Position numbers and translations under genes: made by a program. From a virus, in the IMG/VR virus record IMGVR_UViG_3300044611_001527, positions 1-37,512 of that record: DNA of 37,512 bases. One strand, given 5' to 3'. A model generated the notes under the pieces. It had not been told where the DNA came from and did no database searches. It saw nothing but the letters and a program-made list of their open reading frames with translations. Below, piece by piece: positions 290-15,825 of this stretch. Position 1 is the first letter of the stretch, and every line of letters starts with the position of its first letter.

Positions 290-310
290 CATTAAGCTAC
301 ACTTAACGCG
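290..310 (+). promoter_or_regulatory. Semi-palindromic TTAAG box, copy 1
   Basis: The site reads CATTAAGC, then TACA, then CTTAACGCG. It shares both arms exactly with the box at 8088-8108 (opposite strand), and matches most positions of the copies at 2338-2358, 8050-8070 and 15805-15825. All copies lie between genes. Here the nearest rightward gene starts at 859, so this copy may instead serve a leftward transcript outside the window. Operator, promoter element or RNA 5'-end element are all possible. Confidence 0.55.
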
Positions 311-322
311 TAACAGAGCGCG

Positions 323-350
323 GGCTGGTGGGCTCATGGCTGGTGGGCTC
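323..350. repeat. GGCTGGTGGGCTC direct repeat
   Basis: A 13-bp unit occurs twice (323-335 and 338-350) separated by two bases, followed by a degenerate GGGCTGGCTGCTGGG. It is part of the non-coding stretch 1-858 and has no visible coding role. Short near-tandem duplications like this recur in several gaps of the window. Confidence 0.75.
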
Positions 351-385
351 TGGGCTGGCTGCTGGGTGGAGTGGTAGAGTTTCGG

Positions 386-414
386 TTGACTATTATTCTG
401 GGTTATTATTTATA
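386..414 (+). promoter_or_regulatory. Possible sigma70-type promoter
   Basis: TTGACT (386-391) is followed 17 bases later by TTTATA (409-414) in an AT-rich patch that contrasts with the GC-rich surroundings; TATTAT at 404-409 matches -10 better but is too close. No convincing gene starts within the next 400 bases, so it would give a long leader before 859. The stretch between this site and 764 holds only short GC-rich inverted repeats (540-555; 678-683 with 695-700). Confidence 0.35.
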
Positions 415-763
415 GAGTGGATGGGTATCTGGTGGGGCTTTCGTCGGTAACTTGGGTGTACCTCAGACGTGGGGCAGGTGAGCTGCTATGGACACTTCCG
501 CGGCACTTCCCGCAGGCCCCGCGCGAACCGTACCCCCAAGAACCCCCGGGTGTTCGGACATAGGGCGAGGCGGGCTCAAGCCGACAGGACGCCTCGGCAA
601 GACATCTCGGCTGGACCGTACCTCCCAACAACCAACCCACGCACGCCTCATGGTCCTCTTGGGGCAGAAACTTCGGAGTGCGATCTCACCCACCTCGCAC
701 GACCGTGCTTCGGGCCCGCTGCGTCGGCCGCGCGTCAGGGCGAACTTTTCTTGTGGGGAGAAG

Positions 764-792
764 TTGGCGCTGCGCAGGCTGCTGGTTATAGT
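764..792 (+). promoter_or_regulatory. sigma70-like promoter for the 859-1614 gene
   Basis: TTGGCG at 764-769 and TATAGT at 787-792 are separated by 17 bases, the optimal spacing. The -10 matches five of six consensus bases and the -35 four of six. Transcription would begin near 799 and leave about 60 bases before the start codon at 859, which has AGGA at a suitable distance. This is the best bacterial-type promoter in the left gap. Confidence 0.55.
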
Positions 793-858
793 AAGAGTGC
801 CCGGTGAGAAGAACCCCGCCGGACCTCCCAGACCAAATCGCTCAGTAGGACATTCATC

Positions 859-1614
859 ATGGCTCGCCCCGCATCCGCCCCCGTCACCTACACCGCCGAA
901 GACATCGCCACTATCGCCGCCAAGTCGCCGCTTGAGCTGACCGCGCTCGACCGTCAGCGGCTCGCCAAGTACCAGCGCGATCAGGCTTCGTCCGTGAACC
1001 AGCCCGTCGAGGATGCCTTCACGGCGATGCACAATCAGGCCATTCGGAACCGCCTCGCGGTTCGCGACTTCATTCTCGCCGAGGCCGCGCTCGCGGATTC
1101 CCGCGCCGAGCTGGAGAACGTGGTGGTCAGCCAGGGCCTCACCAAGACCCTGAAGGCCAGCAAGACCCCGGGCAAGGGCCGCCAGGAGGACCTGGTTGTC
1201 CCGGCCATCCCGGTGCGGCGCACCTCGTTCGCGGATGCGATGGGCATTCAGGAGCAGATTCTTGAGGACAACGAGAACCCCGGCACCGTGCTTCCCGCGC
1301 TTGTCGGTCGTCAGCTCGCCATCTCCGTCTTCGAGCCCTGCATCGCCGCCCAGGCGCCCGCGAGCACGATCGCTCTCCTCGTCCGCGCCGGGGTGCTTGC
1401 CCCGGAGAAGACCGAGGGCGCCGAGCGCAGCTCCGGCAAGTACGTTGTGACCGGCCGCCTCGTGTCCCGCGAGGACATGGAGAAGCTGGTTGAGCGGCAG
1501 GCCAAGGAGGAGGCTACGGCTTCCGAGGCTTCCGAGGCTGGCGCCGAGTCGGCTCCGGTCGTCGCGGAGGCCCCCAAGAAGGGCGGTCGCGGGAGCAAGC
1601 GCGCTTCGGCCTGA
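859..1614 (+). CDS. Unknown phage protein with low-complexity basic C-terminus (251 aa)
   Basis: I do not recognise the family. The start follows AGGA about 8 bases upstream and a good promoter at 764-792. The first ~190 residues look like a mixed helical folded domain, with a charged middle (SKTPGKGRQED). The last ~45 residues are Ala/Glu/Ser-rich with repeated SEA units and end in a basic GGRGSKRASA tail, a layout often seen in proteins with a disordered nucleic-acid-contacting tail. It stands alone on its strand, closed by a strong hairpin at 1641-1666, and lies away from the head genes. A DNA-binding or early role is a guess from the tail and promoter only. Confidence 0.85.
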   Translation: MARPASAPVTYTAEDIATIAAKSPLELTALDRQRLAKYQRDQASSVNQPVEDAFTAMHNQAIRNRLAVRDFILAEAALADSRAELENVVVSQGLTKTLKASKTPGKGRQEDLVVPAIPVRRTSFADAMGIQEQILEDNENPGTVLPALVGRQLAISVFEPCIAAQAPASTIALLVRAGVLAPEKTEGAERSSGKYVVTGRLVSREDMEKLVERQAKEEATASEASEAGAESAPVVAEAPKKGGRGSKRASA

Positions 1615-1640
1615 TACGCCATCTGGGTAGGTAACAAGAG

Positions 1641-1678
1641 GGGGAGAGGACTTCGGTTCTCTCCCCTTCTTCGTTGTT
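1641..1678 (+). terminator. Rho-independent terminator with UUCG tetraloop
   Basis: GGGGAGAGGAC (1641-1651) pairs with GTTCTCTCCCC (1656-1666), 11 pairs including one G-U, closing a C(UUCG)G tetraloop, which is exceptionally stable. TTCTTCGTTGTT follows. It lies about 27 bases after the stop of the 859-1614 gene and ends that transcript. Confidence 0.85.
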
Positions 1679-1765
1679 GGCGCTGACCAGGTGCGCGGGG
1701 CTCCGCAACGGAGAAATGCGGGGGAGGGCGGCGCGGTTTGGGCAGATTTTCACAGGTAAAATAAA

Positions 1766-1798
1766 GGAGTACCGGATCTCTCCGGCACTCCTATTTTA
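1766..1798. terminator. Bidirectional terminator between convergent genes
   Basis: GGAGTACCGG (1766-1775) and CCGGCACTCC (1782-1791) form a 10-pair stem with one wobble pair and a six-base loop. On the + strand TATTTTA follows; on the - strand TTTATTTTA follows. The stem sits directly beyond the stop codon of the - strand gene 1799-2326 and behind the first terminator, so it can stop transcription from both sides. Confidence 0.85.
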
Positions 1799-2326
1799 CT
1801 ATCGGCGACCAGGGATTGGGGGCAGGTCCATCCACCACACAGGCGGCGCATCTTTCTGCCTAAACATCAAATCGTCAAACATAAACTTGCCCAGTGGATC
1901 ATCAATACGCATTCCACTGGTTACCGCCCTATCGTCGTTCCAGGCGAACAATACGCGCTGCTCGAACTTAGGAGGGTCAGTAGCTACATCGCGCCACGTA
2001 GGGCTCTTGAGGTTTAGCAAGAAGGTCAACGCGTCCTTCACCGAAAGGCGGTGAATCCTGTGCGAGCCAGCCTGAGCTGCTTTATCTGTCGGCACTCGCG
2101 TAACATACATTGCCAAAGTGTGCTCCAGTGCTTCGACAATGGCGTAGGGTTTGGCCAAACTTTCGCGAATAATGTTTAGCAGCGGAGGCTCCAAGCTGGA
2201 CGGGCGGGACTCTTGGTAGATATGCCCGTTTGGACATCGCTGTTCATCGCGCCCTCCGCCAAGGTACGCACGGTCGTGAAACTCAAACTCGGCTTTGCAC
2301 GTAGGACAAGTGGCTAAGACAATCAT
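1799..2326 (-). CDS. Zinc-ribbon-like unknown protein (175 aa)
   Basis: Residues 7-10 (CPTC) and 31-35 (CPNGH) form a possible metal-binding ribbon at the N-terminus; the remaining ~140 residues match no family I know. The start has GAGGAG 7 bases upstream. It is the last gene leftwards on the - strand but is separated from the scaffold-like gene by a terminator at 2731-2762 and a repeat-filled gap, so it is probably its own transcript. A TTAAG box at 2338-2358 lies only 11 bases before the start codon, so that box is likely its control site or within its leader. A strong terminator follows immediately. Function unknown; a small regulatory or nucleic-acid-binding role is possible. Confidence 0.85.
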   Translation of the reverse strand: MIVLATCPTCKAEFEFHDRAYLGGGRDEQRCPNGHIYQESRPSSLEPPLLNIIRESLAKPYAIVEALEHTLAMYVTRVPTDKAAQAGSHRIHRLSVKDALTFLLNLKSPTWRDVATDPPKFEQRVLFAWNDDRAVTSGMRIDDPLGKFMFDDLMFRQKDAPPVWWMDLPPIPGRR

Positions 2327-2337
2327 GCTTCACTCCT

Positions 2338-2358
2338 CGGTAAGCTGTACTTAACCGC
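2338..2358 (+). promoter_or_regulatory. Semi-palindromic TTAAG box, copy 2
   Basis: The site reads CGGTAAGC, TGTA, CTTAACCGC, matching the arms of the 290 and 8088 copies with small changes. It ends 11 bases upstream of the - strand start codon at 2326, just beyond the ribosome-binding site. That position fits a promoter-proximal operator or a 5'-untranslated structure. Confidence 0.5.
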
Positions 2359-2595
2359 AAGGTAGCGAGAGCGCAAGGGCGTTCGGGGCTCCGCACGGGA
2401 AGTCGTGGTGGGAGGGGCGGCGCCGTGGTGTGTCATTTCGCCCACTTTCGCAGCTCGGAGCGCGTGGTTTTTAACCCCCGTTTTCACCCCGCAGCGTCCC
2501 AACGTGCGAACCAGGAGTGCTGCTGGTAGGGCGCGAGGGCATCTCAGGGCGTCATCTTGTGGCATGTTCGCGGGCATGGACTCAGGGCGTTTCAA

Positions 2596-2723
2596 ACCCT
2601 ACCAGAGTACCCTACCAGAGTACCCTACTGCGAATCCTACTGCGAACCCTACCACAGTCATTCAGTATCTCATTCAGTATCTCATTCAGTATCTCAGGGC
2701 ATGAACTCATGGCATGAACTCAT
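2596..2723. repeat. Three consecutive 12-13 bp tandem arrays
   Basis: First, ACCCTACCAGAGT is present twice exactly (2596-2608, 2609-2621), followed by degenerate copies at 2622-2633, 2634-2645 and 2646-2658. Second, CATTCAGTATCT is present three times exactly (2659-2670, 2671-2682, 2683-2694). Third, GGCATGAACTCAT is present twice exactly (2698-2710, 2711-2723). The arrays are in the non-coding gap 2327-2880; the rest of that gap (about 2360-2595) shows nothing I can assign. Repeat identity suggests recent duplication. Confidence 0.9.
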
Positions 2724-2730
2724 GACGTAG

Positions 2731-2762
2731 AAAACCCCCGGAAACCATTACTGGCCCGGGGG
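2731..2762 (-). terminator. Terminator for the scaffold-portal-terminase transcript
   Basis: On the - strand CCCCCGG and CCGGGGG (2756-2762 and 2735-2741) form a GC-rich stem around a 14-base loop and are followed by TTTTC. It lies about 120 bases after the stop of the 2881-3732 gene and should end the leftward head operon. Confidence 0.75.
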
Positions 2763-2771
2763 CTGGTGAAC

Positions 2772-2818
2772 AAGCTGTAGTGTGGTATGGTGGGTGTGAT
2801 GGGTGTGACGGGTGTAGT
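2772..2818. repeat. AAGCTGTAGTG half-box and 9-bp tandem repeat
   Basis: AAGCTGTAGTG at 2772-2782 is identical to part of the TTAAG box at 15805-15825 (opposite strand). Next to it GGGTGTGAT, GGGTGTGAC and GGGTGTAGT follow in tandem (2792-2818). Both are non-coding, between the terminator at 2731-2762 and the scaffold-like gene end. Whether the half-box is functional is unknown. Confidence 0.5.
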
Positions 2819-2880
2819 GTAGTAGGTGGTATGCTTGATATCACACCACCCATCACTTACTTGTACTACTCCAGTTCTAC

Positions 2881-3732
2881 CTACGCCTTCTTGGCCATCC
2901 ACTCCGCCAGGTAGTTCTTCTTCTTTCCGGCAGCGTCCTTCGGCATGTCACCCGCGCTCGTCTCGCTCATCGCGGGCGGGTTGCGCTTGAGGCCCGGAAT
3001 GCCAGCGACCACATCTGCGGCGGCGGCCTTGCCCTCCTCGCGCGAGGCGGCGGGCTTCGGCTCCTCGGCCTTGGGCTCGACCTTGGGCTCGGGGGCCTTC
3101 TTGCCGTTCTTGCGGGCGGTGCCGATGGCGACCATCACGGCGTTCGGGGCGTGCTCGAAGAGGTCGGCGTCGTCCTTCAGCGCGTCGTAGTAGGCGTCGA
3201 TGCCCTTCATCACTTCCTCGTCATCCGCCAGGTCCGGGGCCTCGGCAGCGACCGATTCGCGCAGGTGCTTGACGAGCTGGCTGAGAAGGTGCTTCTGATA
3301 CTTGTCATTCTCGGACTTCAGCGAGCCGTTGGCGGTCTCCATCTCGGCGAGCTTCGACTTCAAATCTTCCAGCTCAGCAATCATCTTCTCCTTGTCACCG
3401 TCGGCCGCCGCGTCGGTAACGTCCTTGACTTCCTTCTCCAGCATATCTTCGGTCGCGTCCGGCAGGTCGGAATCGGCGAGCAGATCGTGGAGGCCGCGGA
3501 TGTGGCTCTTCACACTGTCGGGCGTCTTGCCCCAGTCCTCACCAATTGACTTGCCCATGTGCGCGTCCCACGGGTCGGCCTCTTCGGTGCCCTCCGCCAT
3601 GGAATCTTCCTTGGGCAAAAGCTCATCGGCGAGCTTCATCGCGCCCGCCTCGTCAACTCCGGCGGCGTCGAATGCGGCCTTGCCGGCTTGAACATCTTCG
3701 GGGGTGTACTGCGGGGACTGGGGCATTAGCAT
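2881..3732 (-). CDS. Probable capsid scaffolding protein (283 aa)
   Basis: A scaffold helps the coat protein assemble into a procapsid and then leaves. The protein is highly acidic, Glu/Asp/Ala/Lys-rich, with a predicted coiled coil around residues 115-160 (charged heptads after KEKMIAELEDL). The Pro/Ala/Lys-rich linker near 210-240 leads to a short basic C-terminus ending in AEWMAKKA. That is the usual scaffold layout, in which the basic C-terminal helix binds coat. It lies downstream of the portal gene on the same strand, as expected. Start ATG has AGGAG six bases upstream; a second ATG two codons on is possible. No sequence motif proves the role, so the call rests on composition and position. 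Confidence 0.65.
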   Translation of the reverse strand: MLMPQSPQYTPEDVQAGKAAFDAAGVDEAGAMKLADELLPKEDSMAEGTEEADPWDAHMGKSIGEDWGKTPDSVKSHIRGLHDLLADSDLPDATEDMLEKEVKDVTDAAADGDKEKMIAELEDLKSKLAEMETANGSLKSENDKYQKHLLSQLVKHLRESVAAEAPDLADDEEVMKGIDAYYDALKDDADLFEHAPNAVMVAIGTARKNGKKAPEPKVEPKAEEPKPAASREEGKAAAADVVAGIPGLKRNPPAMSETSAGDMPKDAAGKKKNYLAEWMAKKA

Positions 3733-3799
3733 TTGGAACTCCTGTTAGGTCGAGGCTAACCGAAGTCGGCCCCGACCGCCAGCCATTAAGCGATGCGCG

Positions 3800-4309: not shown

Positions 4310-4377
4310 GACGGCGTTCCTTTATACGATGGAAGGGGTGGGGTGTTGTGCGGGGTACTGTCTGGCGCGACTAAATC

Positions 4378-6150
4378 TCAAAGCTCAGGCATCTCAGGGG
4401 GAGCTTCAGCGGGCATCTCAGGTGGCATTTCAGGAGGCATCATCTCAGGACCAGGACCAGGACCAGGTGCAGGGGCGGCGGGTGGTGCGGCGGCCTGGAG
4501 CTGGGCCAGCATCTCCGGCGGCACCGTACCCCCAGAACCACCAGCAGCAGTCGCTTGGTCAGGCGGTGGAAGCATGCCATTCGGAGTCGCCTCAGCGTCC
4601 GGAACTTGTTTCTTCAAGTCCGGTGGCATACCCAGCATGTCAACCAGGTAGTGTTGTAGCTTGATAGAGTCGATGCCCTGCATGCTCTGGAGCAACGGCA
4701 GCCAGTTCTGCATCACTTCGGCGAGAACCGCCGGGTTGTCCTTCAGCGGCGAGTAGGCAACGGCCTCAAACTGCAACGACATCTTCGCGAGAATCTTCGG
4801 AGTCAGCTTGCCGTACCGCCCATCGAGGTACTGAATCCCCTCGGCGGGCAACAAGTCCTGCATGATTCGAAGGACTCGTCGCGCGACTGCCTCAAGCGCG
4901 CGGTTCAGCCGGGTAACGCGCGTGGCCAATCGGCTGTCAAGCTGGGCCTCCATCATCTGGAGTTCCTTCGCCGTGCGCACGTTCATCTGCCGCCCGCGCG
5001 AGGCTTCCACGAAGGCCGACTCGCTGGCGGCGTAGCCAATCAGGCGGTCCAGCAGTGTCGCGATTTCGGGCGGAAGTGCCGGCATCGGAGTCGGCATGAG
5101 CACTTCATCGAGCGGGCGCTGCGAATCCCCACTGCCGGTGCGCTCCAGCGGTACATACGAGAACACATTGTTGCGGCCCTTCTCGCCCTCAGCCGCCGCA
5201 ATCGAGGACGGCTCGATTTGGCCCTTGTCGTAGAACATACCAGGGACCATCTTGCTCACAATGGTTAGCACCAAAGTCAGCAAACTGTCCATCTGGTGCT
5301 GCGTCTTCTGAATGAGGCCGGCCTCAGCGAGTCCACCCGTGCTATATCCGTCGTACACCATGTCGAAGTGGATGTATGGGCTGCCGTATTCCAACTTGTA
5401 GCATGCGAGGATGCAGTTGGTGTCTGGTGAGAACACGGTCATCTCGTTACGGGAGCAGTCCACGTAGTACACCAGATTGACCCAACGCTCAGCGTCAAGA
5501 ATCTGGCGGTCGCGCATCGCGCGGTCCTCGTCCAGAAGCCAATCTGGAAAGCTGGTGCCGTTGATGTGCTCGCATGCCTTCTCGTCAAAGCCGTACTCGG
5601 GCATTTGCGCGATGCGGCGGAACTGGGACAGTGGAATCGTCGCGTATTCCATGTGGTACCGGCACGACTGGTGGTCGCGCGCCGTGCGGTCGTACCAGAA
5701 GCGCGAGGGCTCAATGGTCGAAATCGCGAGCTGGCTGTCACAGTCCACTTCCACCTTGAAGATGCCGCGCTTCGCCGTCAGATTGTCGAAGACGGTGGCG
5801 CGAACATGCTGGTGCATGTCCTGGCTGTCGAAGATGAGTCCCAGCATCTCGTCCAGCGCGGCCTTGTAGCGCTTCACCTTGTCCACTTTGCCGTTCACGC
5901 AAACGCGCGGGTTTGGCGGAACCAGTCCGGCGAGCGCGGTGTCTACAACGCAGTGCGTCAGATTGAAGCTGGCAGTATAGTCGAACCCCGCAGAGTCTCG
6001 CGGGGGACCGTACTTGCGGATGCCACCGAGGTTGTTGAGCGCGCCTCTGTAGCGCAGCAGAATGATGTCGCGCTCGTAGCGAGAGTACGCTTCATAGTCA
6101 TTCTTGTGGGCTGTGATGAGGTTTTCGATCAGGTCGGCGGAAGCGCTCAT
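4378..6150 (-). CDS. Portal protein (590 aa)
   Basis: The portal forms the dodecameric ring at one capsid vertex through which DNA is packaged and ejected. Evidence is its length, its position directly after the large terminase, and portal-like features: an N-terminal helical segment (residues 1-45), the YTASFNLTHCVVDTALAG helix region near residues 60-77, a central mixed domain, and a long helical crown-like region near 370-440. The C-terminal ~55 residues are a Pro/Met/Ala/Gly tail built from repeated PPEMP and GPGPGP units, which is unusual for a portal; these come from tandem short DNA repeats at 4380-4480. The start has GAGGAA six bases upstream. Translation is probably linked to the terminase, with 36 bases between them. 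Confidence 0.85.
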   Translation of the reverse strand: MSASADLIENLITAHKNDYEAYSRYERDIILLRYRGALNNLGGIRKYGPPRDSAGFDYTASFNLTHCVVDTALAGLVPPNPRVCVNGKVDKVKRYKAALDEMLGLIFDSQDMHQHVRATVFDNLTAKRGIFKVEVDCDSQLAISTIEPSRFWYDRTARDHQSCRYHMEYATIPLSQFRRIAQMPEYGFDEKACEHINGTSFPDWLLDEDRAMRDRQILDAERWVNLVYYVDCSRNEMTVFSPDTNCILACYKLEYGSPYIHFDMVYDGYSTGGLAEAGLIQKTQHQMDSLLTLVLTIVSKMVPGMFYDKGQIEPSSIAAAEGEKGRNNVFSYVPLERTGSGDSQRPLDEVLMPTPMPALPPEIATLLDRLIGYAASESAFVEASRGRQMNVRTAKELQMMEAQLDSRLATRVTRLNRALEAVARRVLRIMQDLLPAEGIQYLDGRYGKLTPKILAKMSLQFEAVAYSPLKDNPAVLAEVMQNWLPLLQSMQGIDSIKLQHYLVDMLGMPPDLKKQVPDAEATPNGMLPPPDQATAAGGSGGTVPPEMLAQLQAAAPPAAPAPGPGPGPEMMPPEMPPEMPAEAPPEMPEL

Positions 6151-6167: not shown

Positions 6168-6190
6168 ATAGGTAATGCGCAGTAACCTAT
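6168..6190. repeat. Inverted repeat across the terminase-portal junction
   Basis: ATAGGT (6168-6173) and ACCTAT (6185-6190) flank TGCGCA-containing spacer. One arm covers the terminase stop codon and the other lies 17 bases before the portal start. In mRNA it could form a small hairpin affecting ribosome transit between the two genes. This is pattern only. Confidence 0.4.
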
Positions 6191-8028
6191 TTGCCGCCGC
6201 GCTGCCACAGCCACGAGTTTGAGCGGATTACAGGCGTGATTCCGTTCTTCACGAACTCGCGCGCCTCAGCAGATGGCGGACAGCGGGGGCGCGGGGTCAG
6301 GTCCAGCTCGCCCTGGTTATTCTGCGCAACACCCAGGCGACTTGGGCGCTTGTTAATGAGCTTCTTGGTGAAGGAAGGCAGCAGCGAGCCTGCCATCATA
6401 ATCGTACGGGCGCGGTCGAAGTGGTGCTTTGCGCCGTTCGCGCCTCGGATGCGCTTGTGTCGCCAGGTACCAGAGTAGCTAAGTAACTGCTGAAGCGTGC
6501 CGGTGGAGCGCAACGTCATGTCGCGGTCCCGCAGCGCGATTAGCGTTTTACCCTCGGCCTCGGCGACACTCTTGCCGGTCGCGCGCCAGCCCATGTGGTT
6601 GTTGTCGGCGAAGTAAATGTTAATCTTCTTGCCCTGCGACACCAAGTTCTTCAGTACGCCGAGACACGATGATTCGTTGGCCTCAACAATCAGCATCGCC
6701 GCGTGGGCGCCGCAGCGGTAATACTCGCCGACGCGCTCAAGGCGAAGGGCGAACTTGTGCGAGTCCTCAACCGCCTCGAAGAACGCAACCTCGTTCCAGT
6801 CCTGGTCAAACACCGTGAACGCACTGGGGTCACCATCGCCGTCCAGGCCGGCGGAGTCGGCGAAAATGTAGTAGGTGGTCCCCGGCTTCGGCGTCTCGAT
6901 AATAGAGCAACCAAGCTCGAAGTTGTAGGGGTACAAGACATCAGAAGTGGCGTCGCGCAGAAGCTCGTCAATTAGCTCGGGCGGAAATGTCGGCTTGTCA
7001 GTGCCGACCCAGCCGTGGTACGGCGAGCTTGGGTACTTGGTTTCGAATGCCTGCGCAGTCCAGCCCTTCGCGAGAATCTTGCGGCGCCACTGAAGGTTTT
7101 CGTAGGTCAGCCCGCGACAGCGATTGAGCAGTTCGCCCTCCTCGGCGGTCGGATTGAAGCCGCGCGGAACTGTCTCGGTGAACTTGGGACCGAACCACCA
7201 CTCGAAGAACAGGGGGTAATATTCACTTCCGGTGGTCCCATCTGGCATGTTGAGGCGACCCATCGAGTTCAGCGAGTCGTTCCACTGGCTGCGATGCAGG
7301 GACTCCAGACGGCCCGGCGTCGTCTCGATAAGGTCACGGGCGTTCGGGCGCCGCTCGTATGCCGGGAAGAGCTGCTTGAGCAGTTCCTCTTGCCCGTCGA
7401 TTTCGCCGTACTCCGTCAACAGTACGCGATCGGGCGACGTTCCGGCGCCGGGTGAGCGCCCCTCTGCCGAGTCAATCTTGATGGAGCCGCCGCTGGCGAA
7501 CTCAATCTTGTGCTGGGTACCGATGCGGCCCTTGGCAAGCGGTACTTGGATGCACGGGTCCAGCTCTTCGTACGCGGTGACAATTGCGCCATGCAAGTCG
7601 TTCGCCGTCTCCCTTTTATTAGCAAACAACCGACCCTTCAGACCGAAGTACATGCAGTCGCGTAGTAACCAGCCCACTGCGGCGCCGGTTGACACCTGAG
7701 CCTGTCGCGGTTTACTGCCAACGAAGCAGTGCCGATACGAGTGCAGCGCCCAGAAATACCACATTTGGAAATACTGCGGAGTGGGGTGCTGCAACATCGA
7801 ATCGTCGGTTTGGATCTTGCTGGAGCAGAAGAATCCATCTACCGTACCCAAGACATCCCACACCGCACTCAGGTCCAGCTCGGGCGCGACCGCCATGCGC
7901 TCGTTGTCGTCCTGGCCCCACAGCATGCACCCCGTAGCGGCGCCGCGCCGAGTGTACAACTCATCGGCCGGAATGTGCGGAGGGGCGACTTTCTGTCCGT
8001 GTCCCCAGCTTCGGATTAGTTCGGCCAT
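6187..8028 (-). CDS. terL: Terminase large subunit (613 aa)
   Basis: TerL is the ATPase-nuclease that drives DNA into the procapsid and cuts the concatemer. The ATPase domain shows a deviant Walker A at residues 106-114 (KPRQAQVST), Walker B with catalytic acid at 202-211 (VLLTEYGEID), and a coupling motif ETTPG at 235-239. The RNase-H-like nuclease domain shows its acidic residues at D391 (ADSAGLDGDGD), about E449 (IVEANESS) and D538 (KHHFDRAR). The length is typical. The start ATG follows AGGACAGG. It is the first gene of the leftward head operon, with a TTAAG box 21 bases upstream of its start. A small-subunit gene is not adjacent. Confidence 0.93.
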   Translation of the reverse strand: MAELIRSWGHGQKVAPPHIPADELYTRRGAATGCMLWGQDDNERMAVAPELDLSAVWDVLGTVDGFFCSSKIQTDDSMLQHPTPQYFQMWYFWALHSYRHCFVGSKPRQAQVSTGAAVGWLLRDCMYFGLKGRLFANKRETANDLHGAIVTAYEELDPCIQVPLAKGRIGTQHKIEFASGGSIKIDSAEGRSPGAGTSPDRVLLTEYGEIDGQEELLKQLFPAYERRPNARDLIETTPGRLESLHRSQWNDSLNSMGRLNMPDGTTGSEYYPLFFEWWFGPKFTETVPRGFNPTAEEGELLNRCRGLTYENLQWRRKILAKGWTAQAFETKYPSSPYHGWVGTDKPTFPPELIDELLRDATSDVLYPYNFELGCSIIETPKPGTTYYIFADSAGLDGDGDPSAFTVFDQDWNEVAFFEAVEDSHKFALRLERVGEYYRCGAHAAMLIVEANESSCLGVLKNLVSQGKKINIYFADNNHMGWRATGKSVAEAEGKTLIALRDRDMTLRSTGTLQQLLSYSGTWRHKRIRGANGAKHHFDRARTIMMAGSLLPSFTKKLINKRPSRLGVAQNNQGELDLTPRPRCPPSAEAREFVKNGITPVIRSNSWLWQRGGK

Positions 8029-8049
8029 CTGCCTGTCCTGCGAGTGCGG

Positions 8050-8070
8050 TGTTCAGCGCTACTTAACTGT
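8050..8070 (+). promoter_or_regulatory. Semi-palindromic TTAAG box, copy 3
   Basis: TGTTCAGC, GCTA, CTTAACTGT retains the right arm and most of the left arm of the box. It lies 21 bases upstream of the terminase start codon on the - strand and 18 bases from the better copy at 8088-8108. Two boxes in the short divergent gap suggest coordinated control of the two head operons. Confidence 0.45.
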
Positions 8071-8087
8071 GTCAATGGGCCCATGCT

Positions 8088-8108
8088 CGCGTTAAGCAGT
8101 GCTTAATG
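8088..8108 (-). promoter_or_regulatory. Semi-palindromic TTAAG box, copy 4
   Basis: Read on the - strand this is CATTAAGC, ACTG, CTTAACGCG, identical in both arms to the copy at 290-310. The core TTAAGCA-G-TGCTTAA (8092-8106) is a perfect palindrome around one base. It lies 59 bases before the terminase start and 86 before the capsid start, in the centre of the divergent promoter region. No confident sigma70 promoter was seen for either side, which makes the box the best candidate control element. Confidence 0.6.
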
Positions 8109-8194
8109 TCCTTGTACAACTTCTTGGAGTGGCGAGCGTAGAAAGACTATCGGATATGCTAACGGCACAACGGTTTGCAACAGGAGATTCCACC

Positions 8195-9364
8195 ATGGGC
8201 GCGTATACTGGTAGCACGGCGATTGACGCCTTCATCGACGAAGTCAAGATTGGCATTGACGCCGTCGAGAAGACCGGCGTTGAGACCTGGCTTGACAAGA
8301 ACCTCGTCCTCACCGACTTCATCACCAAGATTCGCTCGAAGAAGCCCATGGGCGCGCTCGGGTGGGCCGGCGACATCAAGAAGGCGACCTCGGGCGCCCG
8401 GTTCAAGCGAATCGTGACTGGTACGGAGGAGCTGGCCCCCGCGCCCAAGCTCACCCGCGCCGTGACGAAGCTCGGCATCAACCTCATCGAAGGCGCCTTT
8501 GTGATGGGCGACTTCCAGTGGGAGCTGATTGAGATTGAGAACAGCCCGATTCAGGCTGCCAAGTCCTTCGTGAGCGATGTCATCATCGAGACGCAGAAGG
8601 CGTATGCGTACACGCTGGAGAGCTACATGCTCATCGGCGCTCTGCCGGGCGAGCAGGCCGCCGTCTTTGACGACGTGGCCGAGCTGTACGGCATGAACAG
8701 CCTGTGCGGCGCTGTGAACGCTGGTGGTCTGGTTGATGGTGTGAACTACGGCTTCATCGAGTTCCTTACCCCGACTGCCCAGACCTCGGCCGGCCATCTC
8801 ACGATGGGTCTCGCCCGCGATCAGGCGATTGGTCACTACAACCAGTTCAAGCTGTGCGGCGCTTCCGGTCTTGCCGAGACTGACGCGCTTACCTCCGGCA
8901 AGAACCTGCTTGGAACCATCATCCGCGAAATCAATCGCGCGAATGGTGGGAACTCCAATCTCCGGTTCATCGCTGACGTTGATACGTACGCGTACGCCGA
9001 GTCGCAGCAGAACACCCGCGTTGTGCCCATTGTGGTCGGCGTGCCCGTCGGTGAGAATCTTACCGAGTGGGACTCCACCGTCGAGTACATGAAGGGCGTG
9101 CGGATTCAGGCGTCCCAGGTGCTTGACCGCACCGCTTCGACGCTGGCCGGTACCGATGCTGAAGACGGCTTGATCTACTGTCTGTCGCCCAACCGTATGT
9201 TCCGTCTGGAGCACAACGGCGGTCTTCAGGCCATGGGTCGTGCCCTTGAGCACATCGACGGGCTGGCCACCTCGCGGGCCATGCGTTGGCGTCACAACGT
9301 CAACTTCGGCTGCGAAGACCTCCGTACGCTCGGCGTGCTCTGCGGAACCGCGCTCACCGCCTGA
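8195..9364 (+). CDS. Major capsid protein (389 aa)
   Basis: The coat protein builds the icosahedral shell. I chose the ATG at 8195 (MGAYTGST) because AGGAG lies eight bases before it; the frame is open upstream to 8099 but that extension has no good ribosome site and crosses the regulatory region. Features fit a tailed-phage coat: an N-terminal helix, a mixed alpha/beta body, an extended loop region near KPMGALGWAGDIKK, high codon quality, and a second virion-type gene directly downstream. Length of ~390 residues fits P22- or HK97-type coats. It is transcribed away from terminase, portal and scaffold, which is uncommon. Confidence 0.8.
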   Translation: MGAYTGSTAIDAFIDEVKIGIDAVEKTGVETWLDKNLVLTDFITKIRSKKPMGALGWAGDIKKATSGARFKRIVTGTEELAPAPKLTRAVTKLGINLIEGAFVMGDFQWELIEIENSPIQAAKSFVSDVIIETQKAYAYTLESYMLIGALPGEQAAVFDDVAELYGMNSLCGAVNAGGLVDGVNYGFIEFLTPTAQTSAGHLTMGLARDQAIGHYNQFKLCGASGLAETDALTSGKNLLGTIIREINRANGGNSNLRFIADVDTYAYAESQQNTRVVPIVVGVPVGENLTEWDSTVEYMKGVRIQASQVLDRTASTLAGTDAEDGLIYCLSPNRMFRLEHNGGLQAMGRALEHIDGLATSRAMRWRHNVNFGCEDLRTLGVLCGTALTA

Positions 9365-9381
9365 TTAGGTGTGGTACGAGT

Positions 9382-9412
9382 GGGGCGGTTCTGGGTTATT
9401 CCAGACTGCCCC
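9382..9412 (+). terminator. Hairpin after capsid gene, weak terminator or attenuator
   Basis: GGGGCGGTTCTGG and CCAGACTGCCCC form a stem with one bulge, 18 bases after the capsid stop. The tail (ATTCTAACATCTACTTCTT) is only partly T-rich. Partial termination here would lower expression of the next gene relative to the coat protein, a common arrangement, or protect the mRNA 3' end. Confidence 0.55.
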
Positions 9413-9419
9413 ATTCTAA

Positions 9420-9474
9420 CATCTACTTCTTGCATCTACTTCTTGTACTCCCATATCTCGTATCTCTTATCTCT
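9420..9474. repeat. Tandem repeats between capsid and next gene
   Basis: CATCTACTTCTTG occurs twice in perfect tandem (9420-9432, 9433-9445). TATCTCG, TATCTCT, TATCTCT follow as a 7-bp triplicate (9454-9474). The stretch is pyrimidine-rich and non-coding, directly ahead of the ribosome site of the 9494 gene. Confidence 0.9.
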
Positions 9475-9493
9475 TGCTTGAAGGACACTCACC

Positions 9494-10087
9494 ATGGCTC
9501 GCTACGACACCATTCCCTCCGCCATCTGGCTCTCTTCTGCGGTAGCCAACACCAACTTCCTCGGGAAGAAGCTGCACTTCTCGGCCTCGCAGATGGCTGA
9601 GATTGTTGCGAAGGCGGACGCCGAGGGCCTGACGATGACGGGGCTCACCAGCTTCTCCTTCGTCGGCAACTCCACGCTCGTCTACGTGAAGAACGGCACC
9701 GCCTCTGACCTGGCGGTTCCGGGCGGCATCCTCGTGATGCGCTCCGGCGCCTCCAACAAGTTCGACGTGGAGCCGAACGCCACGAACAACACCACGACTG
9801 CCTACACCCGGCAGCTTGTGGTTGGCTCGCAGCTCTTCCCGATCGCCGCTGGCGAGTACGGTTGGGCCATTTCGTACGAGACTGACGAGATTGCCCCGGT
9901 CATTGCTGGAACTGCTTCGGCCACGTTCCTTCGGGTTCCGGTCACTGCGGCCCTCAGCTCCTCGACCAACGAGAATGGCATTGTCGTCGCCGCCTTCGGT
10001 AGCGCCGGTCTGGCCCGCTGTATCATCGGTGTCGGCCTCGCCAACTCCACGAGCGCGGGTGACATGATTCCGATGCTCTGCGACTGA
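9494..10087 (+). CDS. Virion protein downstream of capsid, possible decoration protein (197 aa)
   Basis: The gene follows the coat gene on the same strand with AAGGA nine bases before the ATG. The product is rich in Thr, Ser, Asn, Gly and Val, with alternating beta-strand patterns (STLVYVKNGTASDLAVPGG), no signal peptide and no membrane segment. Small beta-rich proteins encoded next to the coat gene are often head decoration or head-fibre proteins; here that is inferred from position and composition only. The transcript ends at the terminator at 10138-10169. Confidence 0.7.
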   Translation: MARYDTIPSAIWLSSAVANTNFLGKKLHFSASQMAEIVAKADAEGLTMTGLTSFSFVGNSTLVYVKNGTASDLAVPGGILVMRSGASNKFDVEPNATNNTTTAYTRQLVVGSQLFPIAAGEYGWAISYETDEIAPVIAGTASATFLRVPVTAALSSSTNENGIVVAAFGSAGLARCIIGVGLANSTSAGDMIPMLCD

Positions 10088-10176: not shown

Positions 10177-10197
10177 TACAATAAGTCGCTGAAAGGT

Positions 10198-10506: not shown

Positions 10507-10556
10507 ACGGATTTCCTACTTTGGTTGTTATTGACACTACTCACATACTAATTTCA

Positions 10557-13247
10557 TTATGAGCATCCACTCGTGCCACCACAGTTCGTACAGCGATAGC
10601 ACGAGCCAGAGCGGACCATCATCGAGCCACACGAAGAACAGAAGGGCGCGTCCGAGCCTTCCGGACGATAGGCTACTGGCGCACCGTGATACAGTAGCGA
10701 GACATAATCACGCGACAGATGCGCATCCCTCGCGGGCACTGCTCCCGCGCCGAAGCGCAAGTCGAGCCAGTGGAAGATGTAGTCAATCAAGCTGGACGCG
10801 CTGTGAATCTCCGAGTGCCCCGTAAAGCCGCTGGGCTCGAAGCGGGTGTGGCGGAACTTCTCGATCAGCGTAGCCAGCGGAACGCCGTACTGAAGGCCCA
10901 GGCTGATCGAAGTGGCGAACGCATCCATCAGACCGGAAATGGTGGAGCCTTCCTTGGACATGGTCAGGAAGATTTCACCAGGGGTGCCGTCGGGGTACAG
11001 ACCGACATTGACATACCCCTCGTGCCCGCCAATCTCGAACTTGTGATTGATGGCTTGGCGTTCGGCCGGAAGGCGCCGACGGATTGCGCCGAGCTGGACC
11101 GCCATAATGGGGCCAGCCGGCGTGTACTTGGGCTCTGCCGGAGCAGCCTCAGTCACGTCACTCACTTCTTTCTTCTTGGTGTTCAGCGGCTGGCTCAGCT
11201 TGCAGCCGTCGCGGTACACGGCGATTGACTTGAGCCCGAGCTTCCATGCACTAATGTAAAGTGCCTTGATATCTTCCACAGTATAGTTATTGGGGCAGTT
11301 CACCGTCTTACTGATTGCACCGGAGAGGAATGGCTGCACGGCCGCCATCATAAGAATGTGCGCCTCGGGCGAGAGCACCCGCTGGCCGCTGGCCGACCGG
11401 AGGGCACAGTCGAAGACCTCCAGATGCGCCTCTTCCAGTCCAGCGCCTTCGACGTGACCGTACTCCTCGACGTGCTTAACGATGGCATCGACCAGGTCCG
11501 GCACGTAGCCGAGCGCCACCAGGGCCTCGCGAACGCCATCATTCGCCAGCCGCATGAAGCCGCCGCCGACCAGGTTCTTGTAGGACACCAACGCGATGTT
11601 CGGCTCGATTCCGGTAGTCGAACAATCCATGAGCATTCCGATCGTACCAGTCGGAGCGAGCACGGTGACCTGCGAGTTGCGATATCCGTGTTTGTGTCCT
11701 TCCGTGTAGCACAACTCCCACATGCGCTGGAGCACCGCCGGCTGATGAGCGTCCAGCGCCGCGTTCCAGTGCTTGCTGATCACCCCCAACATCGCATTAC
11801 GATTCTTCACATAGCCGGCGAAGGGCCCCTTCACCTGTGCCAGCTTGGCAGACATCGTGTACGCGGCACAGTGCATCGCTGACGTGATGCTGGCGGCCAG
11901 CTCGCGCCCGTCAGCGCTACCGTACCCAAGCCCAGATACCATCAACAGCGAGCCGAGATTGGCATACCCGAGGCCGAGCTGGCGGAAGTTGCGCGCGTTC
12001 TCGCCAATCTTCTCGGTCGGATAAGAAGCGCGGTCAACAAGGATGTCCTGGGCGATGATGATAAGCTGGCAAGCGGTCGTGAACTTCTCATGATCAAACC
12101 CAAGCACGCCCTCCTTTCTGAACTTCATCAAGTTAAGACTGGCGAGGTTGCACGCAGAGTCGCTAATGTGCATGTACTCCGAACATGGATTGGAGGCTTC
12201 AATCCTTCCACTCTCAGGGCACGTATGCCATTCGTTGATGGTCGTGTCGAACTGGAGCCCGGGGTCGCCGCAGAACCAAGCCGCCTCCGCCATCTGCTCA
12301 AGCAGCATCTGAGGACTGACGGTGCTACACACGTTTCCAGTAGTTCGCTCAACCAAGTTCCAGCTACTACCCATGAGACACGCAGCGCGCATGAAGGAGT
12401 CAGACACGCGCACGGAATGGTTGGCGTTCTGGAAGTAGATGGAGTCGTACGCGCCGCCCTTGGCGTTGAAGGCGCCATCATACCCGGCTGCGATAAGGGC
12501 ATGTGCCTTCTTCTCTTCCACCATCTTACACGAAATGAACTCCTCGATGTCCGGATGGTCGGCATCAAGAATCACGATCTTCGCCGCGCGCCGCGTCTTG
12601 CCTCCGCTCTTTACCACGCCCGCGAACGAGTCGAAGCCGCGCATGAAAGACACGGGACCACTCGCCAGTCCGCCACCGGTCAGCTTCTCCGTCGAGCCGC
12701 GAATCTTGGAGAGGTTGACACCCGCGCCGGAGCCGCCCTTGAACAGCCGCGCCTCAGTCGCCGCCAGCTCCATGATAGAGTCCATCGTATCTTCGGCATT
12801 GTTAATGAAGCAAGCCGAAACCTGCGGCTGGGCATCAACGCCCAGGTTGAACCACACCGGACTATTGAACGCGAAACACTGGTGAAGCAGCAGCCAAACC
12901 ATATCAGCATAGAAATCGCGGCTGGACTCGTAGCAGTCGAAGTAGTTATCCACATAACCCCATGCTGAAATGGTATGAGCCACGCGCTCAATCATCTGGC
13001 GAACAGAACACTCACGCCCTTCCTCACCGAGATGGCCCCGGAAATACTTCGAGGCGGCGATGTTGACCGCAGTGTCAGACCACTCGACAGGCGCCAGAAC
13101 ACCGAGCTGCTGGAAGACGATGCCCCCCTTCGAGTCGGAGATGGTGCAGTCGCGCGTTCCCCACTCCACGGTGCTCCAGGGGTCGATGCCCTCGGGACAG
13201 AACTTGCGAACCCAGGGCAGACCATTGTGCGTATCAGCGACGGACAT
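10557..13247 (-). CDS. nrdJ: Adenosylcobalamin-dependent ribonucleotide reductase, class II (896 aa)
   Basis: This enzyme reduces ribonucleotides to deoxyribonucleotides using a cobalamin-generated thiyl radical, without oxygen. Active-site residues are visible: the N353-P-C355-S-E357 triad (radical Cys C355), and a redox pair C146 (SACFIN) and C366 (SACNLASLNL) at the spacing known for the family. NSPVWFN at 128-134, PTGTIGMLMDCSTTGIEPN and NCPNNYTVEDIKALY are family signatures. The C-terminus carries the Cys-rich tail (CSSCG, CYRCTNCGGTSGCS) that relays electrons from thioredoxin. All key residues are present, so it looks active. It overlaps the dNMP kinase gene by 14 bases and has GGAG six bases before its ATG. 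I saw no intein. Confidence 0.96.
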   Translation of the reverse strand: MSVADTHNGLPWVRKFCPEGIDPWSTVEWGTRDCTISDSKGGIVFQQLGVLAPVEWSDTAVNIAASKYFRGHLGEEGRECSVRQMIERVAHTISAWGYVDNYFDCYESSRDFYADMVWLLLHQCFAFNSPVWFNLGVDAQPQVSACFINNAEDTMDSIMELAATEARLFKGGSGAGVNLSKIRGSTEKLTGGGLASGPVSFMRGFDSFAGVVKSGGKTRRAAKIVILDADHPDIEEFISCKMVEEKKAHALIAAGYDGAFNAKGGAYDSIYFQNANHSVRVSDSFMRAACLMGSSWNLVERTTGNVCSTVSPQMLLEQMAEAAWFCGDPGLQFDTTINEWHTCPESGRIEASNPCSEYMHISDSACNLASLNLMKFRKEGVLGFDHEKFTTACQLIIIAQDILVDRASYPTEKIGENARNFRQLGLGYANLGSLLMVSGLGYGSADGRELAASITSAMHCAAYTMSAKLAQVKGPFAGYVKNRNAMLGVISKHWNAALDAHQPAVLQRMWELCYTEGHKHGYRNSQVTVLAPTGTIGMLMDCSTTGIEPNIALVSYKNLVGGGFMRLANDGVREALVALGYVPDLVDAIVKHVEEYGHVEGAGLEEAHLEVFDCALRSASGQRVLSPEAHILMMAAVQPFLSGAISKTVNCPNNYTVEDIKALYISAWKLGLKSIAVYRDGCKLSQPLNTKKKEVSDVTEAAPAEPKYTPAGPIMAVQLGAIRRRLPAERQAINHKFEIGGHEGYVNVGLYPDGTPGEIFLTMSKEGSTISGLMDAFATSISLGLQYGVPLATLIEKFRHTRFEPSGFTGHSEIHSASSLIDYIFHWLDLRFGAGAVPARDAHLSRDYVSLLYHGAPVAYRPEGSDAPFCSSCGSMMVRSGSCYRCTNCGGTSGCS

Positions 13248-13848
13248 TCGGGACTCCAGTGAGAAGAAGCAGGTGCTCGAACAGTTGGGGAATCTGAGAG
13301 GACAGGTCAGAGAGGGAGGTATGGTTCACAGCGCGCATCTCAGCAGTCTCAACCAGCTTCAGCGCGTGTGCTTCGGATTCGTGGGTAATCTGCGCGGGGG
13401 CTACTCGGTCGTTAAGCACACCAATGATGATGCCGCCGTGCTGTCGAATCGCGGCTGCCTCGTTGGGGAAGCGCACATCTGGAATAAGAACGAATCCAGG
13501 CTGCATATTCGCCAAAGCATAGTTGACCCATGTATCCGAGTAGATGGACCGCGCCACCTCGGTCCCGAGGCGCTGGAAGGCAAACCGCGGCGTGAAAGAA
13601 TACCGAGGGTCTACCGCGTCTTTAAGCGCGCCGTGGCACTGCTCGTACGAGAAGCCATACAGGTCAGCGCAGACCGTCTTTACCTTGTCGGCCAGCCCAA
13701 TCCGCGAGTTGGCGAACCCCTTGCTCAGCATATACGACATCAGCATCGAGGCGACGGTATCTTTCCCGGCGCCAGCGAAGCCCACGATGCCGACTGGAAC
13801 GCAGGTATGTTGCGAACGGTTCTGGAAAGTGGCTATTGCGGGGTGCAT
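13234..13848 (-). CDS. Deoxynucleoside monophosphate kinase (204 aa)
   Basis: It phosphorylates dNMPs, recycled from degraded DNA, to dNDPs. The P-loop GFAGAGKDT spans residues 23-31, and GTEVAR and DVRFPNEA further on match the nucleoside-binding and LID-like parts of the phage T4 gp1 type. Length fits. Its start overlaps the upstream gene by 16 bases and its end overlaps nrdJ by 14, so translation is coupled; its own ribosome site (CGGAA) is weak. Together with NrdJ and the MazG-like protein it forms a dNTP supply set. Confidence 0.9.
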   Translation of the reverse strand: MHPAIATFQNRSQHTCVPVGIVGFAGAGKDTVASMLMSYMLSKGFANSRIGLADKVKTVCADLYGFSYEQCHGALKDAVDPRYSFTPRFAFQRLGTEVARSIYSDTWVNYALANMQPGFVLIPDVRFPNEAAAIRQHGGIIIGVLNDRVAPAQITHESEAHALKLVETAEMRAVNHTSLSDLSSQIPQLFEHLLLLTGVPNVRR

Positions 13849-14525
13849 GGGGTTCCGATGACCTGAAGTTGGTTGTTGATATACACTCGTCCGTACTCAG
13901 AGCGAATGTGCTGCAACTCGTTCTTGATGTACTTGCGCTCAACAAGGCGGCTGTCTTCGCTCTGGTCCACCTTGTTGTGCTGCCACTCCAATTTGACCGA
14001 CTTCACCGCCGGCTTCAAGTCAGTCTCCATATCCATGTCGGCGTAGGTACCGCGAGTCATTGCGGGGAATCGCTCGTAGCGGTAGCGAACGCCGCAGCCG
14101 AGGCAGACTTCCTGCTGACCGTGCTCGCGCAGCTCAACAAACGTCCACAGCGTGGCATTACAGTGGAAGCAAGCGTCGGCCGTCTCGAACAGCGGGGCGC
14201 CCGTGTCCTTCGTGCTGTCCCTCACGATGATGCCCAGCTTGGTACACACAGCGCGCAGGCACTCGATGGTCTCTTCCCGGCTGTCCATCCATTCAGTGCG
14301 CCAGCAGTAGAGTTCCTGGGGCAGCTTGCGGAATCCGGTGAGCTGAATCATCCACCGATGCTTCACGTACACCATGCCAACCTGGTTGCCCAACTCATCG
14401 TGAATCCAGAAGCGTTGCAGCTCGTTGTGGTGCGGCCCGGCCGGCACCCCAGCCGGAATCGCCAGGGTCGCGACTGGCGATACGAAGTCAGCATCACGGT
14501 AGAAATTAAGCACGCAGGCCGCCAT
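13833..14525 (-). CDS. Zinc-ribbon unknown protein in the nucleotide operon (230 aa)
   Basis: Two CxxC knuckles, CFHC near residue 118 and CLGC near 141, make a clear zinc ribbon in the middle of the protein. Around it are a beta-rich N-terminal half with VGMVYVKHRWMIQLTGF and a charged helical C-terminal part. I do not know the family. It overlaps the MazG-like gene by 20 bases at its start and the dNMP kinase by 16 at its end. Its ribosome site is poor, so it relies on coupled translation. The context suggests a partner in nucleotide or DNA metabolism, but no catalytic motif is visible. Confidence 0.8.
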   Translation of the reverse strand: MAACVLNFYRDADFVSPVATLAIPAGVPAGPHHNELQRFWIHDELGNQVGMVYVKHRWMIQLTGFRKLPQELYCWRTEWMDSREETIECLRAVCTKLGIIVRDSTKDTGAPLFETADACFHCNATLWTFVELREHGQQEVCLGCGVRYRYERFPAMTRGTYADMDMETDLKPAVKSVKLEWQHNKVDQSEDSRLVERKYIKNELQHIRSEYGRVYINNQLQVIGTPCTPQ

Positions 14526-15291
14526 GCCGATAGGGGCGGCCCTTGTTGTACTCGTGCTTCAGCATAATCGCCGGAATAATCTTGCCCGGGAACTCGCGGT
14601 TCAGCAGCTCAAAGGTGCAAAGGTAGATATCCCACAGCCCGACGATGAAGTTTTCCTGGGACGTGCGCCGATACATCTCCCACAACACCGACACCTGAGC
14701 CGACAACCAATCCGCGATACACCTTGAATGACCATACGCATATACATTAGTAGGCGTTCTAATCTCAATACCACTAAACACACTTCTAATGTAGTTACGC
14801 ATGCCTTCTTCGACAAAATTGTAGTCAACCGCGCCGAACCGGACGTTCGGGTGGTCATTCAGGAAATAGCCAACGGCATCGGCCATTCGAATCACCAGGT
14901 CCGCCAGCTCAATCCACGCGCCTTCGGGCTTCATCGAAGTAACATTACCGGACGTGTTGTAGTAGACATCATACTTCTGCTGAAGCACCTCAACACGGAA
15001 TTCCTTAATCTCGCCCTCGAAGTTTTGCAGAATCTCCGCCACGTCGCGGGGCTTCAGCGCGCCAGTCTTCTGATCGTGGTACCAGCCGTGCTCAAACGCG
15101 TTCCGATAGGCAAGAACCGCGAACTCGTAGGGCTGAAACTCGCCATCCTTCACGTACACATGCAGCGCATCCACCAGCGACTGTGAAGAGGTAGTAGTAA
15201 TGCGACTATCCTCCCCTGCTTCACCCACCCCGACCTGTTCTTGCGGTGTAAATAGCTGGAGTTGCCATGCTTCGTTCTCGGTGTTTGACAT
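14506..15291 (-). CDS. MazG-like nucleotide pyrophosphohydrolase (261 aa)
   Basis: All-alpha NTP pyrophosphatases of this type hydrolyse (d)NTPs to monophosphates using acidic residues in ExxE and ExxD helices. Here E94-xx-E97 (GEIKEFRVEV) and E128-xx-D131 (IELADLVIRMADAVGY) are visible, and the C-terminus LKHEYNKGRPYRHGG is typical of phage MazG-like proteins. Unlike the compact phage forms, about 90 residues are inserted between the ELAD helix and the C-terminal motif. It starts two bases after the lipoprotein gene's stop and overlaps the next gene by 20 bases. Likely partner of NrdJ and dNMP kinase in shaping the dNTP pool, or in lowering alarmone levels; the substrate is not determinable here. 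Confidence 0.82.
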   Translation of the reverse strand: MSNTENEAWQLQLFTPQEQVGVGEAGEDSRITTTSSQSLVDALHVYVKDGEFQPYEFAVLAYRNAFEHGWYHDQKTGALKPRDVAEILQNFEGEIKEFRVEVLQQKYDVYYNTSGNVTSMKPEGAWIELADLVIRMADAVGYFLNDHPNVRFGAVDYNFVEEGMRNYIRSVFSGIEIRTPTNVYAYGHSRCIADWLSAQVSVLWEMYRRTSQENFIVGLWDIYLCTFELLNREFPGKIIPAIMLKHEYNKGRPYRHGGLRA

Positions 15292-15293
15292 GA

Positions 15294-15587
15294 TCAGTTG
15301 CTTCCCGTGTCATCAGTGGTGGTATCGCAGAAAGTGTGCTCGTCCAGCAGGACAATCCCGCGGCGGCCCTCGTCAACCAGCAGGACTGCGCGACAGTCCT
15401 CGGTCATTCGGTCTTCAATTAGCAGAATGGTGACATCTTCGCCATTGTGGTGCGCGGTAGTCGCATAGCGCGAAGAGGGCAGCCCAGAATACTCCAACTG
15501 CAACGCGCCGCCGCGCCCCGTGTCGGGAGCGCCGCCACCCTGGCAGCCGAACCAGGTCAGCACGAACAGCAGAATCGCGCGGCTCAT
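15294..15587 (-). CDS. Small putative lipoprotein (97 aa)
   Basis: The first 15 residues (MSRAILLFVLTWFGC) resemble a short lipoprotein signal with the acceptor Cys at position 15, although the residue before Gly is bulky for a lipobox. The rest is soluble, acidic and ends in a Thr/Asp-rich tail. Its start overlaps the end of the membrane-protein gene 15584-15787 by four bases (ATGA). A small TM protein overlapping a small lipoprotein recalls two-component spanins, but there is no long periplasmic coiled coil in the partner. It may instead be an envelope or superinfection-exclusion protein. Confidence 0.7.
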   Translation of the reverse strand: MSRAILLFVLTWFGCQGGGAPDTGRGGALQLEYSGLPSSRYATTAHHNGEDVTILLIEDRMTEDCRAVLLVDEGRRGIVLLDEHTFCDTTTDDTGSN

Positions 15588-15787
15588 GGTGTCATCCCAA
15601 TCGGCGCGCTGTCGTCGGTGTCAATCGCCTCGGGCTGGTCGAAGTAGAAGGTGCATGTTCCGTAGCACTTGACGCTGAGCGCCACGACAATCATAAGTAG
15701 AACGAAGACCACGCTCGGGTTCTGGAGCGCGTTCCAGGGCACCCCGTAGTAGTCGTCTTCGTCCCTGTCTTCTTGCTTCGAGCCCAT
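15584..15787 (-). CDS. Small single-span membrane protein (67 aa)
   Basis: A hydrophobic segment at about residues 25-41 (PSVVFVLLMIVVALSV) follows an acidic N-terminus, and a short acidic tail of ~25 residues follows. The polarity rule would leave the N-terminus ambiguous, as flanks carry few positive charges. It has the best ribosome site in this region (AGGAGGTG seven bases before ATG), so it is probably strongly made. It is the first gene of the dNTP operon and overlaps the lipoprotein gene by four bases. Holin, spanin-like or envelope-exclusion roles are possible. Confidence 0.75.
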   Translation of the reverse strand: MGSKQEDRDEDDYYGVPWNALQNPSVVFVLLMIVVALSVKCYGTCTFYFDQPEAIDTDDSAPIGMTP

Positions 15788-15804
15788 CGCACACCTCCTG
15801 TGAG

Positions 15805-15825
15805 TTCGTTCACTACAGCTTAATG
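15805..15825 (-). promoter_or_regulatory. Semi-palindromic TTAAG box, copy 5
   Basis: On the - strand it reads CATTAAGC, TGTA, GTGAACGAA, sharing the full left arm and part of the right. It lies 17 bases before the start codon of the operon's first gene (15787) and in the divergent gap with the + strand gene at 15914. The same placement relative to - strand genes is seen at 2338 and 8050. Confidence 0.5.

Follow-up and report, generated by a model that had tools for sequence, protein, structure and literature searches.

Short boxes recur between the genes of an uncultured virus of bacteria, and this locus raises the question of what reads them. The window analysed here is the whole stretch of 37,512 bases from virus record IMGVR_UViG_3300044611_001527. 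In the original prediction five copies of a semi-palindromic TTAAG box were picked by eye and proposed to be the recognition element of a phage-encoded regulator or polymerase, with a ribbon-helix-helix protein as a candidate binder. The analysis below supports a recognition element well and a phage-encoded regulator as plausible, and leaves the polymerase without support.

Gene map and the six boxes

The lineage is without a close relative beyond one contig in the collections searched, and few of its genes can be named by homology. Megablast of the first 25 kb of the window and tblastn of the terminase-like (6187-8028) and portal-like proteins both gave no match among 50,697 phage records. 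No prophage or contaminant copies of the phage were found in bacterial genomes. Six protein scans of IMG/VR viral contigs returned a sole relative, IMGVR_UViG_3300036985_005979 (38,655 bases), which is colinear with the window and mostly 71-91% identical over the aligned stretches. Window positions 310-661 and 1678-2377 are missing from it; the second of these stretches holds gene 1799-2326 and its box. Genes were called from codon-position substitution patterns between the window and this relative, which also served as a footprint.

Noncoding DNA makes up 9.5% of the window, and searches of the window for tRNA and Rfam families gave no match. The transcription units are listed in Table 1. Function names are weak except for the RNR, the kinase, the primase and the portal: gene 6187-8028 is called terminase-like solely because it neighbours the portal-like gene, and gene 8195-9364, the start of which is fixed by AGGAG ahead of ATG 8195, is possibly the major capsid gene, as judged by position only. 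The class II RNR of the relative (L009:8977-12909) contains an in-frame insertion of ~414 aa that is absent from the window copy (10557-13247) and that ends with HN before the next host-protein residue, as inteins do. An ORF of at least 1651 aa (32558-37512) runs off the end of the contig and has no notable Pfam or PHROG match; the contig of the relative ends near the same place. At the other end, window positions 1-205 hold an array of direct and inverted repeats of the TCACTGACTG/CAGTGAGTGA type, also present in the relative, which may be an origin or the end of the genome. In the window CTAG occurs once against 139 expected, CTGCAG is absent against 11.7 expected, and GATC is at 0.37 of expectation.

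Table 1. Boxes, candidate regulators, transcription units and genes in the window
Feature	Position	Strand	Description
Box 1	290-310	+	CATTAAGCTACACTTAACGCG; left-end noncoding region; exact TTAA-N7-TTAAC
Box 2	2338-2358	+	CGGTAAGCTGTACTTAACCGC; upstream of start codon of gene 1799-2326 (-)
Box 3	8050-8070	+	TGTTCAGCGCTACTTAACTGT; in head-to-head region 8029-8194
Box 4	8088-8108	-	CATTAAGCACTGCTTAACGCG read on -; faces box 3
Box 5	15805-15825	-	CATTAAGCTGTAGTGAACGAA read on -; in head-to-head region 15788-15913
Box 6 (new)	22650-22666	+	GTTAACTACGATTCAAC; in head-to-head region 22556-22803; inner bases differ, without TTAAG
Head-to-head regions (three)	8029-8194, 15788-15913, 22556-22803		
Candidate regulator, 89-aa HTH protein	21214-21483	-	MGRPYKNVDGRVAKALELIAGGLSERKACKEARVCRTTFHVRT...
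Candidate regulator, 69-aa ribbon-helix-helix-like protein	19601-19810	-	62% identical to relative
Unit	22555 to 16579	-	AT-hook protein, HTH protein, DUF3307 protein, ribbon-helix-helix-like protein, primase
Unit	15787 to 10557	-	nearly contiguous; box 5 at head; genes 15584-15787, 15294-15587, 14506-15291, 13833-14525, dNMP kinase 13234-13848, class II RNR 10557-13247; products: two small membrane/lipoprotein-like proteins, pyrophosphatase-like, dNMP kinase, class II RNR
Unit	8028 to 2881	-	portal-like gene and neighbours; boxes 3 and 4 upstream
First gene of 8028-2881 unit	6187-8028	-	97% identical to relative; third-position changes 0.88
Portal-like gene	4378-6150	-	in 8028-2881 unit
Single-gene unit	2326 to 1799	-	gene 1799-2326
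Conserved gene	8195-9364	+	98.5% identical to relative; divergent from 6187-8028
Plus-strand genes	859-1614, 8195-10087, 15914 to ~16559, 22804 to right end	+	

The box consensus is CATTAAGC-N4-CTTAACGCG, with a core TTAAG-N5-CTTAA within GTTAA-N7-TTAAC. The window holds six copies, all intergenic, with at least one in each of the three head-to-head regions. Boxes 1 to 5 lie exactly where they had been placed by eye, and on the gene map drawn from codon-position substitutions they do fall outside coding regions, as had been claimed; box 6 and the fit of the box to the CtrA consensus had been overlooked. The two copies named as the best, boxes 1 and 4 on opposite strands, share CATTAAGC and CTTAACGCG exactly, so that 290-310 and 8088-8108, once the latter is reverse-complemented, have 17 bases in common around four variable ones. 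Boxes 5 and 6 deviate from a perfect dyad. The half-sites reported at 3784 and 22604 (CATTAAGC and CTTAATATC) are real and conserved in the relative; the one reported at 2772 contains no TTAAG. Beside box 6, at 22682-22699, lies a different palindrome, TAGTTTG-TACT-CAAACTA, with one base changed in the relative.

A box stands near the start codon of the units 15787-10557, 8028-2881 and 2326-1799, and the 11-21 bases stated for starts 2326, 8028 and 15787 proved correct (11 bases for box 2, 21 for box 3 and 17 for box 5). Boxes 2 and 5 are close to Shine-Dalgarno sequences, box 5 immediately before that of gene 15584-15787 (-), and boxes 1, 4 and 6 are distant from start codons. Some four helical turns (40 bp) separate the centres of boxes 3 and 4. 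For the 22555 unit, in which the candidate regulators are encoded, the sole box is the weaker box 6, ~95 bases upstream. The orientation of the boxes relative to the genes varies.

Departure from chance and conservation

The mutual likeness of the copies is unremarkable: the best pair of noncoding 21-mers agrees at 17 of 21 positions, and 17 or more was reached in 30 of 60 shuffles of noncoding DNA. Leave-one-out matrix scores set the five sites picked by eye clearly apart from the remaining sequence; these scores are circular, since the sites had been picked for likeness, and they are not used as proof. The symmetry of the box is a different matter. TTAAG-N5-CTTAA with at most one mismatch is found at four noncoding places against 0.06 expected (in none of 1000 shuffles) and nowhere in genes. 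In a scan of the noncoding DNA for all 5-base palindromes with spacers of 0-12, to which the sites picked by eye were not supplied, GTTAA-N7-TTAAC came out as the top gapped palindrome (log10P -8.67, the left-end repeat array aside), and the best of 400 shuffles reached -6.86. It was this unbiased scan that revealed the sixth box at 22650.

With at most one mismatch TTAA-N7-TTAAC occurs at six places in the window, two exact and four with one mismatch, all of them noncoding. In shuffled noncoding DNA 0.32 would be expected, and six were reached in none of 1000 shuffles. Other spacings (2-12) of the same pattern give 0-3 places, of which 0-1 are noncoding. Four of the six boxes lie within the head-to-head regions, which form 14% of the noncoding DNA (P 0.005), and the TTAA-N7-TTAAC scan of the window found none in co-directional gaps inside units.

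In the relative the pattern, again with at most one mismatch, occurs at five places, all orthologous to boxes of the window. Across the five boxes that both genomes share, all 50 arm bases are identical, and the spacers show 3 changes in 25 bases. Box 1 keeps 18 of 21 bases (L009:198-218) though its right flank is not alignable, and in box 4 two of five spacer bases have changed between identical arms. Box 3 is identical at L009:6879-6899 and box 6 at L010:2201, and boxes 3, 5 and 6 weigh little as evidence of conservation because the stretches around them are conserved throughout. Box 2 and gene 1799-2326 are jointly absent from the relative. The arms are more conserved than spacer and flanks, in small numbers, and the conservation is partly common ancestry because only two genomes were compared. 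The two findings that the original prediction had named as fatal to it did not appear: no equally good matches lie within genes, and the boxes are conserved in the relative. A wider search of phages for CATTAAGCNNNNCTTAACGCG returned one unrelated contig, with the match within an ORF, and this hit was set aside. For GTTAAGYNNNGCTTAATG it returned 84 stretches; the 80 listed loci are without homology to the window except for the known relative, and in eight loci examined in detail the matches are nearly all within long ORFs.

What may read the box

A landing site of one regulatory protein that would time the genes of the virus is the most likely explanation, because mirror-image boxes are intergenic and stand at every back-to-back unit start. 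The operator of a dimeric protein would look like this: a dyad that recurs, in either orientation, where transcription units begin. The box, conserved and phage-wide, belongs to a known operator type and has a sequence that is new. With moderate confidence we take the boxes to be operators of one dimeric sequence-specific DNA-binding protein that is probably encoded by the phage. Such a protein would recognise GTTAAG-N5-CTTAAC, an inverted repeat, in the promoters and leaders of the phage transcription units and would switch these units together. Dimeric binding is suggested by the dyad symmetry and control of transcription by the position of the boxes. Where they lie 11-21 bases before a start codon, repression would be preferred to activation, and the placement of boxes 2, 3 and 5 near starts suits either repression or a very short leader. 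The 40-bp spacing of the facing boxes 3 and 4 would suit cooperative binding. The surroundings of boxes 3 and 4 gave no sigma-70-like promoter, so that no promoter could be placed. That the protein comes from the phage and not from the host is suggested by the TTAAG inner bases and by the absence of a box-rich genome among the host genomes sampled.

Both candidate regulators are encoded in the 22555-16579 unit. In the HTH protein the N-terminal region is almost identical in the relative and the HTH is strongly conserved, with a diverged tail; a three-helix model is predicted (residues 11-40, pLDDT ~83), and family and fold matches are weak. The ribbon-helix-helix protein named in the original prediction also has weak matches to its family (NCBIfam ORF56, E = 0.0018, below the cut-off), and its model (mean pLDDT 63) gave no fold match below E 0.001. 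The models of both proteins are of low confidence. As a candidate the HTH protein ranks no lower than the ribbon-helix-helix protein. There is a slight lean, not a result, to the HTH protein as the binder of the box, since the unchanged arms of the box would fit the better-conserved reading head.

The main rival to the phage-regulator reading, though an unlikely one, is that CtrA, a cell-cycle regulator of the host, binds the boxes, which would imply an alphaproteobacterial host and phage genes tied to the cell cycle. The published CtrA consensus is TTAA-N7-TTAAC (PMC4046655), and a search of the window with up to one mismatch returns the six boxes alone; since this consensus was picked once the motif was already in view, the fit is suggestive only. 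Several phages of Alphaproteobacteria have genes under CtrA control, a tie to the host cell cycle has been proposed for phiCbK-like and other phages, and the CtrA boxes of phages cluster intergenically, including one gap between divergent genes (PMC9437464). The inner bases speak against CtrA. Five of the six boxes carry TTAAG/CTTAA inverted half-sites (on both strands or as an intact half), and TTAAC as in known boxes is present inside box 6 only, whereas most listed Caulobacter CtrA sites read TTAAC (PMC3751295) and the three TTAA-N7-TTAA sites in the first 12 kb of phiCbK, taken as a control, show TTAAC whichever strand is read (6 of 6). A small CtrA matrix puts only box 2 first, the other boxes scored ranking 15th-30th, and GANTC is not depleted (1.08 of expectation). 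Less than decisive is the class II RNR, for which the nearest enzymes among the matches listed lie outside Alphaproteobacteria, at ~47-55% identity and from many phyla.

A takeover by the phage of operators that belong to some other host regulator is also improbable. Phages do adopt host operators, e.g. those of LexA, Spo0A and CtrA (PMC9437464). However, among 150 genomes of one phylum none has a regulon-like number of TTAAG-N5-CTTAAC, with a few copies each at most, and seven genomes reached via the RNR relatives hold 0-2 copies; these counts cover exact matches, and the reversed-pattern control is poorly matched for TTAA-poor genomes. It is similarly improbable that the box is either a variant CtrA-type site, tying all divergent promoters to a host cell-cycle regulator through TTAAG half-sites, or the one site through which a single phage protein of a new family controls all head-to-head promoters.

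The polymerase half of the original prediction would require a phage RNA polymerase that starts transcription at the boxes, as at hairpin promoters of the N4 type, and this is very unlikely. The boxes do lie 11-21 bases before three start codons, and box 4 contains a stem-loop AAGC-NNN-GCTT, with a 6-bp stem and a 3-base loop both in the window and in the relative. In N4 promoters the closing pair must be G:C and the loop bases are fixed (PMC4496689); most boxes lack these features, and the G:C closing pair is present in box 4 only. No RNA polymerase turned up in a family search of this incomplete genome fragment, nor does the unfinished ORF (at least 1651 aa) match anything, and the boxes do not keep one orientation to the genes. 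With no virion RNA polymerase gene found in the fragment, and with boxes that do not share the 3-base loop, G:C closing pair and fixed purines, an N4-type hairpin promoter was rejected. It is more improbable still that the boxes act as RNA, in 5' leader hairpins bound by a translational repressor: boxes 2 and 5 are directly ahead of Shine-Dalgarno sequences, but boxes 1, 4 and 6 are far from starts, the boxes occur in either orientation, and there is no Rfam match. Chance similarity picked by eye is hardly credible, for while the likeness among the copies alone is ordinary, the dyad, spacing, placement and conservation are each beyond shuffles.

Relation to known systems

A box at every divergent promoter offers a direct handle on the transcription programme of this phage and on the genes that may be switched together, and it gives two small candidate proteins a testable role. 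Should host CtrA read the box after all, an independent lineage would be added to the phages that putatively read the cell cycle, and the class of the host would be named.

The closest parallels in spacing are the CtrA boxes of phiCbK-like phages and of Brevundimonas phage vB_BsubS-Delta (PMC9437464), which share with this box the TTAA-N7-TTAA spacing and the intergenic location; in vB_BsubS-Delta they are concentrated in the gap where divergent genes start, another likeness. In contrast to them, five of the six boxes described here have TTAAG/CTTAA inside instead of TTAAC/GTTAA, there are one or two per region instead of clusters, and the host is not known to be an alphaproteobacterium. The early promoters of N4 (PMC4496689) resemble box 4 in a short inverted repeat around a 3-base loop. 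The stoperators of Cluster A mycobacteriophages (PMC9283540, PMC6550527) are likewise one site dispersed over the genome in multiple copies. Stoperators are reported to be asymmetric sites to which a monomer binds and which also stop elongation (PMC9283540), whereas the box described here, with six copies, has dyad symmetry and stands where units start; an asymmetric site in many intergenic gaps and also inside operons is not what is seen here. The master repressor MrpR (YopR) of SPbeta and its operator element SPBRE (PMC10516654) differ from the present case in sequence and perhaps in host and regulator; they resemble the arrangement proposed for the boxes in that a phage master regulator has a repeated operator element.
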